From assembly GCA_016867375.1 (NCBI GenBank), contig VGJQ01000007.1, forward strand, positions 1 to 41,713: a stretch of DNA of 41,713 nt. The letters are read 5' to 3'. The notes beneath the pieces are model-generated. The model searched no databases. It was not told the origin of the DNA and saw only the letters and a program-made list of their open reading frames with translations. Shown one piece after another: positions 2,328-16,536 of this stretch. This DNA comes from Candidatus Kaiserbacteria bacterium (GTDB taxonomy: Bacteria > Patescibacteriota > Minisyncoccia > Phycocordibacterales > UBA2100). Every line of letters begins with the position of its first letter. Position 1 is the stretch's first letter. The translations under genes were made by a program, and so were the position numbers.

Positions 2328-3857
2328 ATGTCATTAAAAATTCTTTTCCTACTGCTCGGATTTACGGGCGTAGTCAGTATTGCAATCGGATACTATCTCC
2401 GATTGATTATCAGTCTCGGTAAAAAGGGCTCGATGGAGCTCGAGATCAAGAAAATGATGCTCGATGCCGAAGAGAAGGCAAAGACGATCACCGACGCCGC
2501 CGAAAAGCGCGCCGAGGAAAAAGCGCAAGAAATCTTGGGTGAATACAAAGAGCGCGAACGTGATCTCAAGGCGACAGAAGAACGCCTAATCAGCAAGGAA
2601 GACTTGCTCGACAAGCGCCAGACCAAGCTCGATTCTGAGCAGGAGACGCTTGTAAAGAAAGGCGAGGCGCTCCAGGTCTCTCAGCAAGAAGCCGAAGGCG
2701 TGATTCGTGCCCAGCAAGAGAAGCTCGAGTCGATAGCCGGGCTTTCTGCCGAAGAGGCCAAGAATCAGCTCGTGCAGTCGATCGAGAAACAATACGAGGC
2801 CGATATCGAAAACCGCATGCGTAAGCTTGAAATCACAAGCGATCAAAAGCTCGAACGCCGCGCCAACGAAATCCTCGTCACAGCCGTGCATCGTCTGGGC
2901 AATTCCGTCGTATCGGATGTCTTGGCGACTACCATTACCCTCCCTAACGACGAGATCAAAGGCAAGATCATCGGTAAAGAAGGTCGCAATATCCGCTCAT
3001 TTGAACGCGCGACCGGTGTCGATGTGATCGTCGACGATACGCCAGGTACCATCACCCTCTCATCGTATGATCCGATCCGCCGTCAGGTGGCACGCATCGC
3101 ACTTGAAAATCTCATCATCGACGGCCGCATCCAGCCCGCCAAGATCGAAGAGGCAGTGCAGAAGGCGGAAGCCGAAATCAACAACATCATCAAGAAAAAA
3201 GGCGCCGAAGCCGCCTACGAAGCGCGCGTCCCCAACATGGACCCCAAACTTCTCATGGTCCTCGGACGTCTCTACTTCCGCTCCAGCTACGGGCAAAATG
3301 TCCTCGATCACTCGGTCGAGATGGCACACCTCGCCGGTATGCTCGCCGAAGAGCTCGGCGCTGATCCGGTTGTCGCTCGCGCAGGGGCGCTCTTCCACGA
3401 CATCGGCAAGGCCGTCGATCATGAGGTGCCTGGTACCCATGTCGAAATCGGTCGCCGCATCCTCCAGAAATTCGGTGTTGACGAGGCGGTGATCAAGGCC
3501 ATGCAGGCGCATCACGAGGAATACCCGTACGAGACGCCCGAGTCCATGATCGTGCAAGTCGCCGATGCCATCTCTGGCGCCCGCCCAGGTGCTCGCCGCG
3601 ATAGTGTAGAACAATACATCAAACGTCTCGAAGACCTTGAAGGTATCGCCAACAGCATCCCAGGTGTCGACAAGAGCTATGCGATCGCCGCAGGCCGTGA
3701 AGTCCGCGTCATCGTCAAGCCAGAGGCCATAAGCGACCTCGATGCGCGCAAAGTCGCCCGCGACATCGCCGACCGCATCGAAAAAGAGATGCAGTATCCT
3801 GGAGAGATTAAAGTCTCGATCATCCGCGAGACGCGCGTCATTGAATACGCGCGCTAG
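2328..3857 (+). CDS. rny: Ribonuclease Y
   Basis: Membrane-anchored endoribonuclease that starts mRNA decay in many bacteria lacking RNase E. Read in order: an N-terminal membrane segment (ILFLLLGFTGVVSIAIGYYL), a long charged coiled coil, a KH domain with GKIIGKEGRNIRSFE, and an HD domain with HDIGKAVDHE and HHEE. The length of 509 residues is typical. The frame is open from 2295, but starting at the second Met (2328) puts the membrane helix at the very N-terminus, as in the family, so I prefer it. A TATACT at 2158-2163 could be its promoter. PNPase, its usual partner in RNA decay, is encoded at 32870. Confidence 0.95.
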   Translation: MSLKILFLLLGFTGVVSIAIGYYLRLIISLGKKGSMELEIKKMMLDAEEKAKTITDAAEKRAEEKAQEILGEYKERERDLKATEERLISKEDLLDKRQTKLDSEQETLVKKGEALQVSQQEAEGVIRAQQEKLESIAGLSAEEAKNQLVQSIEKQYEADIENRMRKLEITSDQKLERRANEILVTAVHRLGNSVVSDVLATTITLPNDEIKGKIIGKEGRNIRSFERATGVDVIVDDTPGTITLSSYDPIRRQVARIALENLIIDGRIQPAKIEEAVQKAEAEINNIIKKKGAEAAYEARVPNMDPKLLMVLGRLYFRSSYGQNVLDHSVEMAHLAGMLAEELGADPVVARAGALFHDIGKAVDHEVPGTHVEIGRRILQKFGVDEAVIKAMQAHHEEYPYETPESMIVQVADAISGARPGARRDSVEQYIKRLEDLEGIANSIPGVDKSYAIAAGREVRVIVKPEAISDLDARKVARDIADRIEKEMQYPGEIKVSIIRETRVIEYAR

Positions 3858-6502: not shown

Positions 6503-7153
6503 ATGAAAGCAATCATCTGCGGAACAAAAAGCATGTCGATGGGCCGGCTTATCGGCAGAGATCTCGCGCAGAGGAATTGGCAGGTGTGGCTATATTCGCG
6601 AAGCGCAATACATTATGACAAGGGCAATCTCCACAAACGTCGCATAGATGTGACAGATGCACGACAAATCGAGTCGCTCTTCGCGGAGTGTGGAGACCCT
6701 ACTCTCGCCATCTTAAGTGCTGATACCGGCAACGCTTTTGGGTTGTTGCCGGATATACCGGCGGCAGACGTGCGATCTTTCGTAGCGACGAAAGTGCTCG
6801 GCAGCATCTTATTCGTCCAGGAGTTGTTGCGGCGCGGTGCTTGCGCGAAGGTCGTGTTTTTGGGAGGCAGGCTCGATCAAAAAAGCAAGGATTGCATGCT
6901 CTATGGGACTGTCAATCATGCAATTATGGGGCTCATCGAGGAAACAAATCGACACTACGGTTCGAAATTGCAGGGGTACTACCTCGAGACGCCGGTCATA
7001 TGGCCGTCGCGAATTGCTCATGCATACGTACGAGCAACAGGCACACCTGTCGACGGACAGCCACCAAGTGTCGTGTGGGATACGCTCCTCGCTATCATTG
7101 AGGGTAAGCATATGCCAGGTTTTGTGGCATGTACGCAAGGTAGGGTTCTTTAA
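6503..7153 (+). CDS. SDR-like Rossmann-fold protein with a degenerate active site
   Basis: A protein of 216 residues with an N-terminal nucleotide-binding strand and loop (MKAIICGTKSMSMGRLIGRD), an LSADTG segment after beta-4 and a YGTVNHA segment at residues 134-140 where short-chain dehydrogenases have YxxxK. The lysine is Asn138, and no catalytic Ser is evident about 13 residues before Tyr134. It may bind NAD(P) without being a normal dehydrogenase. AGGAGG lies 7 nt before the ATG. The leader includes copy 1 of the 95-bp element. A strong terminator follows at 7157-7187. Confidence 0.65.
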   Translation: MKAIICGTKSMSMGRLIGRDLAQRNWQVWLYSRSAIHYDKGNLHKRRIDVTDARQIESLFAECGDPTLAILSADTGNAFGLLPDIPAADVRSFVATKVLGSILFVQELLRRGACAKVVFLGGRLDQKSKDCMLYGTVNHAIMGLIEETNRHYGSKLQGYYLETPVIWPSRIAHAYVRATGTPVDGQPPSVVWDTLLAIIEGKHMPGFVACTQGRVL

Positions 7154-7156
7154 AAA

Positions 7157-7187
7157 GGCCGGGGAGGCAACTCCCCGGCCGCTTTTT
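7157..7187 (+). terminator. Strong intrinsic terminator
   Basis: GGCCGGGGAG, loop GCAA, CTCCCCGGCC, then GCTTTTT: a 10-bp GC-rich stem with a tetraloop and T5, just after the SDR-like gene. Confidence 0.9.
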
Positions 7188-7352
7188 GTCCTGTGGATAG
7201 CACCATGCAAAATGATTGACAGCCGCATAATAAGGCTCAAAATGGTGACAGTAAGGCTCAATACGCATAGCCTTGCTATGCGTCATCCGATCAGTATGTA
7301 TGACGGATGGAGTGGCATTATCAATTTATTCATTCGTAACATCTACATTTGT

Positions 7353-7628
7353 ATGGCAAATAAAATGGATTTGGCAGATGCAGTGCAGGAGGCGATCGGC
7401 TCGACGAAGGCCGATGCAGAGCGCGCTGTCGAAGCAGTGATTATGGGTATCACCCATCACCTCAAGAATGGCAACGAGGTCTCGATCGCGGGTCTCGGCA
7501 TTTTCGAGGCCAAGACGCGTGCAGGTCGCACGGGCCGCAATCCGCGCACCGGCGAGACGATTCAGATCAAGGCGATGAAAGTGCCGAAATTCCGCGCTTC
7601 CAAGACCCTCAAGGATGCGATCAAATAA
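7353..7628 (+). CDS. HU/IHF-family DNA-binding protein
   Basis: Small nucleoid protein that dimerises and bends DNA. The protein has 91 residues: helices at about 5-40, then the beta arm with the family signature GRNPRTGETIQI (61-72) and the C-terminal KVPKFRASKTLKDAIK. The ATG at 7353 (MANKMDLADAVQEAIG) gives the normal family length; the much longer frame upstream is not coding. No good ribosome site is present. The stop codon lies inside a 26-bp perfect palindrome (7621-7646). Confidence 0.93.
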   Translation: MANKMDLADAVQEAIGSTKADAERAVEAVIMGITHHLKNGNEVSIAGLGIFEAKTRAGRTGRNPRTGETIQIKAMKVPKFRASKTLKDAIK

Positions 7629-7646
7629 TGCGATCGCATTATTTGA
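7621..7646. repeat. 26-bp perfect palindrome over the HU stop codon
   Basis: TCAAATAATGCGA followed by its exact reverse complement; the TAA stop of the HU gene (7626-7628) is inside. It could act as a 3' stability hairpin for the HU mRNA. Confidence 0.7.
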
Positions 7647-7697
7647 CCCCGAGTGGCTTGTCCTGAGCTGAGTCGCAGGAAGTCGAGGGGTTGAAAC

Positions 7698-7730
7698 ACA
7701 AAACCCGCCTTTCAGCGGGTTTTGTAGTTT
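7698..7730 (+). terminator. Terminator after the HU gene
   Basis: ACAAAACCCGC, loop CTTTCA, GCGGGTTTTGT, then AGTTTT: an 11-bp stem. It follows a GTCCTGAGC...AGTCG stretch (about 7660-7690) that looks like a short dispersed repeat. Confidence 0.75.
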
Positions 7731-7818
7731 TGTGCGGGACGAGGGAGTTGGTCATACATAAAAACGAACTCGCCGCTCGGATGATTCCGGGCGGTTTCTT
7801 TTGTTCACCGATATTTGC

Positions 7819-8628: not shown

Positions 8629-8838
8629 AAATCGCTTTAAATGGGATACACCACAAAGGCATTTCCATTTTGCTAAGCCGAGTACGGCTAAGCAAAATTG
8701 GTCACAGTTCGAGGCGCGCGAGAAAAATATTTTGAGCCGTACAGGACGTACGGTGAGAAATATTTTTTGATGCGCAACGATGAAATGTGCCCATTTTAAG
8801 TGATTTTATAAAGGACAAAGTTATCCACAGGTCAGTCC
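8629..8838. other. Gene-free stretch with hairpins and a DnaA-box match
   Basis: Contains the hairpin family member at 8665-8707, a second hairpin (CCGTAC...GTACGG) framed by two AAATATTTT blocks at about 8728-8768, and TTATCCACA at 8821-8829, an exact DnaA-box consensus lying between AAAGGAC and GTCCTTT arms. A single box is not an origin. No ORF is supported. Confidence 0.5.
8665..8707. repeat. Hairpin family member A
   Basis: CCATTTTGCT, A, inner stem AGCCG/CGGCT around loop AGTA, A, AGCAAAATTGG, then TCACAG. Member B (16753-16798) shares the flanks CCATTT and AAATTGG.CACAG with different stem bases. Confidence 0.6.
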
Positions 8839-8866
8839 TTTACACTGTCCGATAAGGTAGTATTCT
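8839..8866 (+). promoter_or_regulatory. Promoter of the candidate small RNA
   Basis: TTTACA (8839-8844), 16 nt, TATTCT (8861-8866). The same pair at the same spacing precedes the cell-wall hydrolase gene (27574-27601). A DnaA-box match lies 10 bp upstream. Confidence 0.55.
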
Positions 8867-8872
8867 TACTTT

Positions 8873-9111
8873 CAGTGCTCATTGACTTCTTCCGTAGTTC
8901 TAACAACTACGAGAAAAAATAACGTACAAAATACTCTCGCATCATATTTTTTAACAACACCTCCGTGTTGTATTGGACGCCAAAGTATTTTTGTAGAAAA
9001 TAAAATCTCGCGCTCTTTATAGAAAAACGTGAAGAAGTAGATTAAGCCGCCTCGCAAGGTAATTGGATCCGCTCGGTCATCCAATTCCCTCACGAGGCGG
9101 TTTTTCTTTTT
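8873..9111 (+). ncRNA. Candidate structured small RNA, about 240 nt
   Basis: A promoter at 8839-8866 and a large terminator ending in TTTTTCTTTTT bracket a stretch with no ATG. Nested pairings can be drawn: ACTTCTTC (8885-8892) with GAAGAAGT (9031-9038) closes a domain containing hairpin CGTAGTT/AACTACG (8893-8911) and TACAAAATAC (8925-8934) with GTATTTTTGTA (8985-8995), which encloses ACAACAC-CTCC-GTGTTGT (8954-8971). The exposed CUCC loop is complementary to a Shine-Dalgarno GGAG. It does not look like RNase P, tmRNA or SRP RNA. The role is unknown; base-pairing with leadered mRNAs is my inference. Confidence 0.45.
9047..9111 (+). terminator. Two-tier terminator of the candidate small RNA
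   Basis: CCGCCTCG (9047-9054) pairs with CGAGGCGG (9093-9100) around an inner AATTGGAT/ATCCAATT stem (9061-9068 and 9079-9086), followed by TTTTTCTTTTT. Confidence 0.8.
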
Positions 9112-9201: not shown

Positions 9202-9230
9202 TTGACAAAAACGTATAGATAGATTATACT
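9202..9230 (+). promoter_or_regulatory. Consensus promoter
   Basis: TTGACA (9202-9207), 17 nt, TATACT (9225-9230): a full match to consensus, serving the gene at 9273 with a leader of about 36 nt. Confidence 0.85.
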
Positions 9231-9272: not shown

Positions 9273-9587
9273 ATGCCTACCGATGTGGAAAAAGTACTTC
9301 AGGTTATTCAAGGGAAGACGATTGAAGTCTGTCGAAAGACAGGGGTCATCGTTGGCCTTGAAGAAAAAGAGGGGTCGTACCCTGTCATCCTTACCAGAGG
9401 TGATCTAGCTCGTGTATCGTTCTTCCGTTTCCCGGACGGGGAAATGGTGGTCTGTGCCCAGGATCAAGAAACGGCACGCGATGCACCAAGCACATACAAT
9501 ATTGTCGATTTAGAAAACGGCCTAAAAGGCGGGAAGGTGAATGGCGTCGTCCCTATAGCACAGGCTATCGCAATGGCGATAGCCTAA
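9273..9587 (+). CDS. Hypothetical protein, strongly expressed by its signals
   Basis: A protein of 104 residues that I do not recognise. It has a consensus promoter, a near-perfect ribosome site (AAGGAG 8 nt before the ATG) and its own terminator, so it should be abundant. The product is soluble-looking with no membrane segment: an N-terminal helix (MPTDVEKVLQVIQG), a probable beta-rich middle with VILTRGDLARVSFFRFPDGE, and an alanine-rich end (AQAIAMAIA). The last codons include a 9-bp perfect hairpin, GGCTATCGC-AATG-GCGATAGCC (9563-9584). It is a single-gene unit converging on the CCA-adding enzyme gene. Confidence 0.75.
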   Translation: MPTDVEKVLQVIQGKTIEVCRKTGVIVGLEEKEGSYPVILTRGDLARVSFFRFPDGEMVVCAQDQETARDAPSTYNIVDLENGLKGGKVNGVVPIAQAIAMAIA

Positions 9588-14928: not shown

Positions 14929-16536
14929 ATGGCTTCGAAGAAGATTGTCATTATTGGCGGCGGGCACAATGGCCTCGTCGCTGCACTCTATCTGGCAGAC
15001 GCAGGACACAGGGTCACTATACTAGAATCCCGGGATAGGGTAGGGGGTGCGGCATATACCGATACCACCACTTTTCCAGGCTTTAAGTTCTCGAAGTTCT
15101 CATACCTCAACAGCCTCATGCTGAAGGAGATTGTCGAAAAATTTGAGCTTACAAAGTATGGGTACAAAGTCCTACCGCGCAATCCATCGTCGCATACGCC
15201 TCTGCCAGATGGTAGGGGACTCATCCTCGGCCCCGACATGGCAAAGAATGTCGCGGAGATAGCACGATTCTCTCAGAAAGACGCAGTTGCCTATCCGCGC
15301 TACGAGCACGCGCTCGGCGAGTTGGGTAAATGGATGTCGGCGATGATGACCATGACTCCGCCGAGCGGGCCTCTGCCGCGCCACTGGCGTGATATCAAGA
15401 GTCTGGCACGGCTCGCCCGTCACATAGTGCGACTCAACCCTCTACAGATGTGGCGCTTGGCCAGACTCGTCCTCACGGATCCCGTCACCTATCTCGACAG
15501 TTGGTTTGAATCCGACGTCCTCAAGGCGACCCTGCATACCGATGAGATCATTGGCGCCACCAATCTCTCGGGCTACGTCCTCCTACATCATGTGATGGGG
15601 GATGCAGGCGGAGCACGTGGTGTGTGGGGCTCTATGCGCGGTGGTATGGGAGCCATCTCGGACGCATTGGCCGCCGCCTGCAAGGAACGCGGTGTGGGCA
15701 TCTTCCGTAATACAGAAGTCCTTCGCATCGACCACGATCCTATCCGCAATAGGGTGCGGCGGGTCGTCGCGGACATGCAGGTGACGCCGTCATACCGAGC
15801 ACAGCTTGCCCTTGAAGCGGATGTCGTCGTTTCCGCGGTGAATCCCTCGACGACGTTTGACACATTCCTCGCCGACGTACATACGCCAGCCATCGACCGG
15901 ATCCGACAAAAGGTCGCCAGGCGCGACTCTTCGAGCGGGACATTCAAGATAAATCTCGCACTTCGCGGCCTGCCGCATCTGCGCGGGACCTTGCAGGGAC
16001 ATGTATGGCCACAACATCAGACGACCATCCACATCTCGCCGACGGTGCAATATATCCTTGACGCACTCGAAGCATATCGACAGGGGCGTTCGTCGCCGAA
16101 GCCGATACTCGAAGTGACTATCCCGAGCGTCCTCGACGACACGCTCGCCCCCGTAGGGCAACATGTCATGGGTATCTTTGGGCAGTTTGTGCAATACGAC
16201 GTCAATGGCGAGGAATACTGGCAACAGGTCGTCTTGCCGACATTGCGTGAATACTTCACCAATATTGACGAGATACTCGTCGGCAAACAGGTGCTCACGC
16301 CGCGCGACATCGAGCGCGAGCTCGGCATGGTAGGTGGCAACATCTTCCATGGCGGTATGGGTATCGGGCAACTCTTCTGCAATAGGCCTACTGCCAGCAT
16401 CGCCGACTACCGGGCGCCGATCCAAGGCGTCTACCTCTCTGGTGCGGGCACACATCCGGGCGGGGGAGTCTGCGGCGCAAGTGGCCGCAATGCTGCGCTC
16501 GAAATCCTGGCGGATATCCGCGGAGGACGTATCTAG
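14929..16536 (+). CDS. FAD-dependent oxidoreductase, phytoene-desaturase/PYROXD2-like
   Basis: A protein of 535 residues with an N-terminal dinucleotide-binding motif (KIVIIGGGHNGLVAALYLAD) and acidic strand end ILESRDRVGG, a large substrate domain, and the C-terminal FAD signature (IQGVYLSGAGTHPGGGVCGA). This is the NAD(P)/FAD amine-oxidase/phytoene-desaturase superfamily, close to PYROXD2-like proteins; the substrate is unknown and no carotenoid genes are nearby. AAGGAA lies about 8 nt before the ATG. A terminator follows at 16543-16580. It is the only large metabolic enzyme in the accessory region. Confidence 0.85.
   Translation: MASKKIVIIGGGHNGLVAALYLADAGHRVTILESRDRVGGAAYTDTTTFPGFKFSKFSYLNSLMLKEIVEKFELTKYGYKVLPRNPSSHTPLPDGRGLILGPDMAKNVAEIARFSQKDAVAYPRYEHALGELGKWMSAMMTMTPPSGPLPRHWRDIKSLARLARHIVRLNPLQMWRLARLVLTDPVTYLDSWFESDVLKATLHTDEIIGATNLSGYVLLHHVMGDAGGARGVWGSMRGGMGAISDALAAACKERGVGIFRNTEVLRIDHDPIRNRVRRVVADMQVTPSYRAQLALEADVVVSAVNPSTTFDTFLADVHTPAIDRIRQKVARRDSSSGTFKINLALRGLPHLRGTLQGHVWPQHQTTIHISPTVQYILDALEAYRQGRSSPKPILEVTIPSVLDDTLAPVGQHVMGIFGQFVQYDVNGEEYWQQVVLPTLREYFTNIDEILVGKQVLTPRDIERELGMVGGNIFHGGMGIGQLFCNRPTASIADYRAPIQGVYLSGAGTHPGGGVCGASGRNAALEILADIRGGRI

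Follow-up and report, generated by a model that had tools for sequence, protein, structure and literature searches.

Our results show that positions 8839 to 9111 of the window, the whole stretch of 41,713 nucleotides analysed here from a Candidatus Kaiserbacteria genome, are a single-copy gene for a stand-alone non-coding RNA of the Paceibacteria order that holds Kaiserbacteria. By the evidence given here it belongs to a new structured RNA family, absent from Rfam 15, in a known setting, that of boxA biology. Rfam searches of the window and 26 related loci, at gathering as well as permissive thresholds, returned nothing at the RNA locus. Covariation, the locus and recurrence across the order give strong support to the original prediction of a structured non-coding transcript at this site, with its promoter, which is conserved, and its DnaA-box-like site. 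A single-copy RNA gene retained order-wide in streamlined, uncultured bacteria is likely to have a basic job, and the boxA motif points to a concrete and testable partner, NusB-S10. The features of the gene are as follows.

8809 to 8854, forward strand: promoter upstream block, with TAAAGGACA at 8809-8817, TTATCCACA at 8821-8829, GTCCTTTACA with the -35 and TGTCCGATA at 8846-8854
8839 to 8866, forward strand: promoter TTTACA-N16-TATTCT, from sequence and consensus scan
8873 to 9111, forward strand: inferred non-coding transcript, its start placed 7 nt past the -10 and its end taken from the T-run
8877 to 8885, forward strand: leader boxA-like site GCTCATTGA, degenerate in the window; close relatives have GCTCTTTGA or GTTCTTTGA
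8885 to 8892, forward strand: closing helix P1, 5' strand, pairing with 9031-9038; both-side changes in 7 of 8 pairs
8893 to 8911, forward strand: alternative 5' hairpin CGTAGTT-CTAAC-AACTACG, competing with the inner P1 step and P2
8910 to 8914, forward strand: P2, 5' strand CGAGA, pairing with 9006-9010; 91.9% of cells paired
8924 to 8935, forward strand: P3, 5' strand GTACAAAATACT, pairing with 8984-8995; both-side changes in 10 of 11 pairs
8954 to 8971, forward strand: P4, terminal hairpin ACAACAC-CUCC-GUGUUGU; loop CUCC or CUCU in all 22 short forms, covariation in 6 of 7 pairs
8984 to 8995, forward strand: P3, 3' strand AGTATTTTTGTA, from the covariance-model alignment
9006 to 9010, forward strand: P2, 3' strand TCTCG, from the covariance-model alignment
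9012 to 9019, forward strand: 3' junction boxA site GCTCTTTA, by sequence; GYTCTTT here in 20 of 22 short forms
9031 to 9038, forward strand: closing helix P1, 3' strand, from the covariance-model alignment
9046 to 9111, forward strand: two-tier intrinsic terminator with T-rich tail; an analogous long hairpin and T-run in all 22 relatives

The promoter was found where it had been predicted, with TTTACA at 8839-8844 and TATTCT at 8861-8866 separated by 16 nucleotides, and a consensus scan picked out the same promoter. The DnaA-box-like site TTATCCACA is likewise present, at 8821-8829, but its distance to the -35 box is 9 bp and not 10 bp as claimed. Its core TATCCACA occurs in 36 of 44 genus loci, the exact TTATCCACA in 22, and the closed genome G037 codes for a DnaA whose GRDHTTV motif is intact. 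This site and the TGTCC[TG][TA]TA repeats that surround it suggest regulated expression of the RNA. The rare 9-mers TGTCC[TG][TA]TA and TA[AT][CA]GGACA are grouped around the RNA promoter and recur at a few further sites in the genome (window positions 8809, 8846 and 12857; L239 at ~3740-3770 and 6990-7760; L235 at 15800-16430), and are possibly operators of one regulator. A replication origin, as suggested by the DnaA-box cluster, was rejected, as the GC skew is flat both in the window and in G037; in the latter genome dnaA lies near 87 kb and the RNA locus at 144 kb.

As predicted, ATG is absent from 8873-9045, and the two-tier terminator could be traced in full, with CCGCCTCG (9047-9054) pairing with CGAGGCGG (9093-9100), an inner stem AATTGGAT/ATCCAATT and then the tail TTTTTCTTTTT (9101-9111). 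The consensus scan missed it because the loop is too long for that scan. The terminators of the relatives (L015-L036) often contain a small hairpin within the 5' arm, e.g. GCCGTC-AGAC-GACGGC, which is an alternative to the long terminator hairpin. A protein-coding origin of the locus was rejected, since core lengths differ by non-multiples of three and no long frame is common to relatives.

The 239-nt transcript (8873-9111) folds at -74 kcal/mol (z = -7.0 when compared with dinucleotide shuffles, of which 0 of 200 did as well), and the core without terminator has a folding z of -4.7. The minimum-energy fold is a single long rod, which runs from the closing helix ACTTCTTC/GAAGAAGT over a CGT/ACG step, an asymmetric bubble, CGAGA/TCTCG, a long internal loop and GTACAAAATACT/AGTATTTTTGTA to the terminal CUCC-loop hairpin. 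The pairings read earlier from the sequence are all there: ACTTCTTC (8885-8892) with GAAGAAGT (9031-9038), GTACAAAATACT (8924-8935) with AGTATTTTTGTA (8984-8995), the hairpin ACAACAC-CTCC-GTGTTGT (8954-8971), and CGTAGTT (8893-8899) with AACTACG (8905-8911). The last of these, however, competes with the rod, because CGT 8893-8895 and CG 8910-8911 are used by both, and the helices of the original prediction are thus never all formed together. This alternative 5' hairpin is compensated in many relatives when judged by eye, and its exact stems exceed shuffles in one or a few relatives, individually not in most.

Compensatory changes were counted in 17 relatives aligned with a covariance model, built on a structure-aware, hand-made seed of eight sequences with gaps as N. 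In this alignment, which omits the five best-scoring relatives, whose reverse strand matched too, both sides had changed in 27 of the 35 base pairs and 87.5% of cells pair. There were 102 double-change cells as compared to 31.7 in shuffles, and the signal was lost when the partners were slid by 1-3 columns. As this alignment was made to follow the structure and contains four sequences of the seed, the terminal hairpin was counted separately, in a gap-free alignment of all 22 short forms; here the CUCY hairpin had 44 double-change cells against 14.7 expected, around an invariant CUCC/CUCU loop. RNAalifold, run on a first MAFFT alignment with misaligned ends, recovered 11 pairs only.

Within the genus, homologues were first found by blastn over 70 genomes of the family, and the covariance search gave full-length copies in 22 of 52 genus genomes, the four weakest scoring 33-38 bits; a few loci match the model on their reverse strand too, as long hairpins do. 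Promoter, core and terminator come in the same order in all 22 copies, exonuclease III (xth) lies upstream in all 22, and a convergent cca lies downstream in 21, the remaining locus being near a contig end. The model had no match in 30 genus genomes; exonuclease III was also found in 23 of these, and 22 of the 23 have the same promoter block, followed mostly by a longer structured RNA and usually by a clear terminator. The long forms are multibranched, not rods; they often have a CAGGTAC..hairpin..ATTGG..GTACC arm in common with the short form, with a loop other than CUCY in most cases. The CUCC loop is a trait of one form and not of the whole RNA family, because most long forms carry another hairpin loop. 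One genus contains two very different RNA forms behind the same promoter and in the same place, about half of them short (L015-L036) and half long (L042-L065).

The same arrangement extends to the order, where the promoter block TTATCCACA..TGTCCTTTACA, searched as the pattern TATCNACA-N1-6-GTCCTTTAC, was found in 113 of 397 genomes, nearly always once in each, as compared to 0 of 397 for the reversed pattern used as control. A scan of named genomes gave 80 readable loci, which, where the names are informative, belong to Kaiserbacteria, Taylorbacteria, Adlerbacteria, Nomurabacteria, Campbellbacteria, Zambryskibacteria and other Parcubacteria/Patescibacteria, and at 75 of the 80 loci a -10 box matching at least 4 of 6 positions stands at the expected spacing. 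At 30 order loci examined for their neighbours, the convergent cca was downstream in 23 and exonuclease III upstream in 17. The median folding z of 79 order loci, each compared with only 20 shuffles, was -3.8, and 56 of them have a recognisable terminator. Order-wide homology rests on promoter, position and the GYTCTTT motif described below, and a structure common to all these loci would be conjecture.

An accessory 104-aa gene, with AAGGAG ahead of its start, lies between the RNA and cca at 9273-9587. It is on the same strand, and the terminator ends ~160 nt ahead of it, as would be expected if the RNA were a leader or attenuator of this downstream gene. We consider the chance of this to be next to nothing, as the gene has its own promoter (TTGACA-17-TATACT at 9202-9230) and was not found beside the RNA at the other 21 genus loci, where the convergent cca is usually directly next; in the genus, the RNA persists without the gene.

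The original prediction held that the RNA acts in trans, with the CUCC/CUCU loop and CU-rich single strands pairing with Shine-Dalgarno (SD) sites of accessory mRNAs. An exposed CUCY loop that is invariant in 22 of 22 short forms, on a stem that covaries, fits this model, and in its own genome SD-like motifs are modestly enriched, 16.4% vs. 8.4% in rough counts that take the first ATG as start codon. On the other hand, CCUCC is missing from the 16S 3' ends of G038, of the close relative G032, and of G079 and G114, which have GGATTCATTC or a similar sequence (..GCTGCTCGTGGATTCATTC in G038 and G032, and similar in G079 and G114); the own 16S gene leaves its contig before the 3' end. Counted in the same rough way, SD-like motifs were not significantly above background in G033, G051, G038, G045 and G037 (9.0% vs. 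6.4% in G037), two of which carry the CUCY form, and most long forms at this locus have another loop in place of CUCY. GGAGG able to pair with the CUCC loop inside the RNA was seen in only a few relatives. The anti-SD role is thus unsupported and in our view very improbable, and an SD-directed role could concern a minority of genes at most. The accompanying claim that many mRNAs look leaderless agrees with our counts, as TATA-like signals dominate upstream of ATGs; the most enriched tetramers before the ATG of long ORFs are TATA-like in most genomes, as in leaderless genes. LhrC and RNAIII are CU-rich anti-SD small RNAs. The RNA described here resembles them in its exposed CUCC/CUCU loop and UCUU single strands, but differs in that its lineage has no anti-SD in the sampled 16S and makes little use of SD sites. 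CU-rich loops in this lineage should not be taken as anti-Shine-Dalgarno by default.

A different motif stood out from the transcripts themselves. GTTCTTT was the most frequent 7-mer in 74 transcripts, a motif that was not chosen beforehand, and in a partly overlapping set of 79 order loci, themselves independent of each other, GYTCTTT was present in the first 160 nt of 57 transcripts, as compared to 2 in antisense and 3.9 on average in shuffles. At least two copies were found at 16 of the 79 loci (0.24 expected); the majority of order loci have a single copy, in many cases close to the 5' end, and about one quarter have none. The consensus of boxA, the site to which NusB-S10 binds in rRNA antitermination, is GYTCTTTAANA in gamma-proteobacteria (PMC5725501); GYTCTTT equals its first seven bases, and the RNA does not conserve the AANA tail. 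The leader site of the short form lies 5-8 nt ahead of the model core. The rRNA leaders of these bacteria have boxA-like sites too, which are ATGACCTTTGATAATCGAAT for the own genome, TAGACCTTTGAAAACTGAAG for G038 and TGTTCGTTGAAAATT for G079, with related sites in G032 and G146, and nusB was present in 12 of 12 genomes. In the own genus, the sites in the rRNA leaders have GACCTTTGA in place of GYTCTTT, so the motif in the RNA is no exact match to the local boxA. From these sequences we infer that GYUCUUU in the RNA is boxA and hence that NusB-S10 would bind the transcript. As in the boxA of rRNA leaders and suhB (PMC5725501), the core GYTCTTT is on the RNA strand, NusB is encoded and related sites occur in rRNA leaders. 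Here, in contrast, the site is known from sequence, lies in a short stand-alone non-coding RNA instead of ahead of an rRNA or coding gene, and has two positions in the short form, one of them near the 3' end.

Our preferred reading, in which we have somewhat less than even confidence, is one of action in trans: the finished RNA would display boxA and keep NusB-S10 bound, as a reservoir or decoy. NusB-S10 would bind the GYUCUUU sites of the transcript, the rod may bring two boxA sites near each other, and the NusB-S10 held in this way could adjust the amount of free rRNA antitermination machinery, while the DnaA-box/GGACA promoter would set the level of the RNA. Trans action is favoured because the best conserved copy lies late in the transcript of the window's form and copies are often multiple; the late junction copy is beside the closing helix, with little left to protect in cis, and therefore presentation in trans appears most likely. 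Should NusB-S10 prove to be the partner, the rRNA antitermination machinery would have a stand-alone RNA dedicated to it, and we know of no description of such a layer of regulation. Protein-holding small RNAs such as CsrB and RsmZ bind a protein (CsrA) via many sites; if the decoy reading is right, the likeness lies in repeated short protein sites on a folded RNA, the difference in one to three sites instead of many and in the putative partner, NusB-S10 and not CsrA. A wider proposal, that a dedicated boxA RNA titrates NusB-S10 order-wide under a DnaA-box promoter, and so ties antitermination supply to the replication or growth state in bacteria that largely dropped SD/anti-SD initiation, is in our judgement unlikely.

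The main rival to a decoy, and a somewhat unlikely one, is that boxA works in cis only. NusB-S10 on the nascent leader would then hold the 5' end close to RNA polymerase, which would allow the long-range closing helix to form and make elongation processive, much as with the leader-trailer helices of rRNA, and the mature RNA would have an unrelated job. Many order loci, with a single GYTCTTT within the first 60 nt, are as this model would have them, and in the long forms of the genus GYTCTTT comes after a 5' hairpin, which is also the order of boxB and boxA in rRNA leaders. PMC10250234 offers a precedent for such a cis role, in the leader-trailer helix and antitermination complex of 16S biogenesis. 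A cis-only function accounts poorly for the best conserved copy of the window's form, near the 3' end of the domain, and for the multiple GYTCTTT copies that are common. By motif regex, no Rho was found in the closed genome G037, the one genome scanned, and a purely anti-Rho cis role is therefore less likely there.

A strongly diverged 6S RNA comes next after the cis-only model and seems quite improbable. The rod, with its large central bubble, would in this case imitate an open promoter and be bound by the sigma70 holoenzyme. Like 6S RNA (RF00013), the RNA is stand-alone and single-copy with its own promoter, and the short form is a rod with a closing helix, a large asymmetric central bubble and a terminal hairpin. 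No match to the 6S model reached the cut-off in 148 order genomes, and the place of 6S may be empty in this group; as a control, the RF00013 model had matches in 5 of 14 known genomes. Conversely, RF00013 has no match at the RNA locus or at related loci even in a permissive search, nor in the own genome, and the RNA differs from 6S in its boxA motifs and in the multibranched long forms, which are not rods, at the same locus. To our knowledge, boxA has not been described on 6S RNA. Three weak 6S matches (L114, L115 and L116; 22-26 bits, under the cut-off) were seen in other families of the order, and the weak matches in G191 and G117 are on contigs other than those of this RNA. Among open-licence papers, nothing relevant was found on 6S RNA, small RNAs or a lost anti-SD in this group.

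Other known identities were rejected as well. The models of small and large SRP RNA (RF00169, RF01854) have no match at the locus, and genome searches with them gave 0 of 6 and 0 of 12. The RNase P RNA (RF00010) of the own genome lies elsewhere, on contig C24 of G000, and RF00010 matched in 6 of 6 genomes, with most scores below the curated cut-off. For a phage origin, no match was found among phage records. Six-frame motif scans of G037 found no Rho, Ffh or FtsY GTPase; SRP may be lost or strongly diverged in this group, as far as such scans tell. The 16S genes deserve a last remark. The 16S loci of the order (L102 at ~1508-2975, L104, L103 and L106) have a GGATTCATTC-like end and no anti-SD; the 530 loop reads GCCAGCAGGAGCGGTAA in G038 and in the own gene, where GCCAGCAGCCGCGGTAA is usual; and the own 16S gene (L108, contig C22) carries several intron-like insertions, some with open frames.
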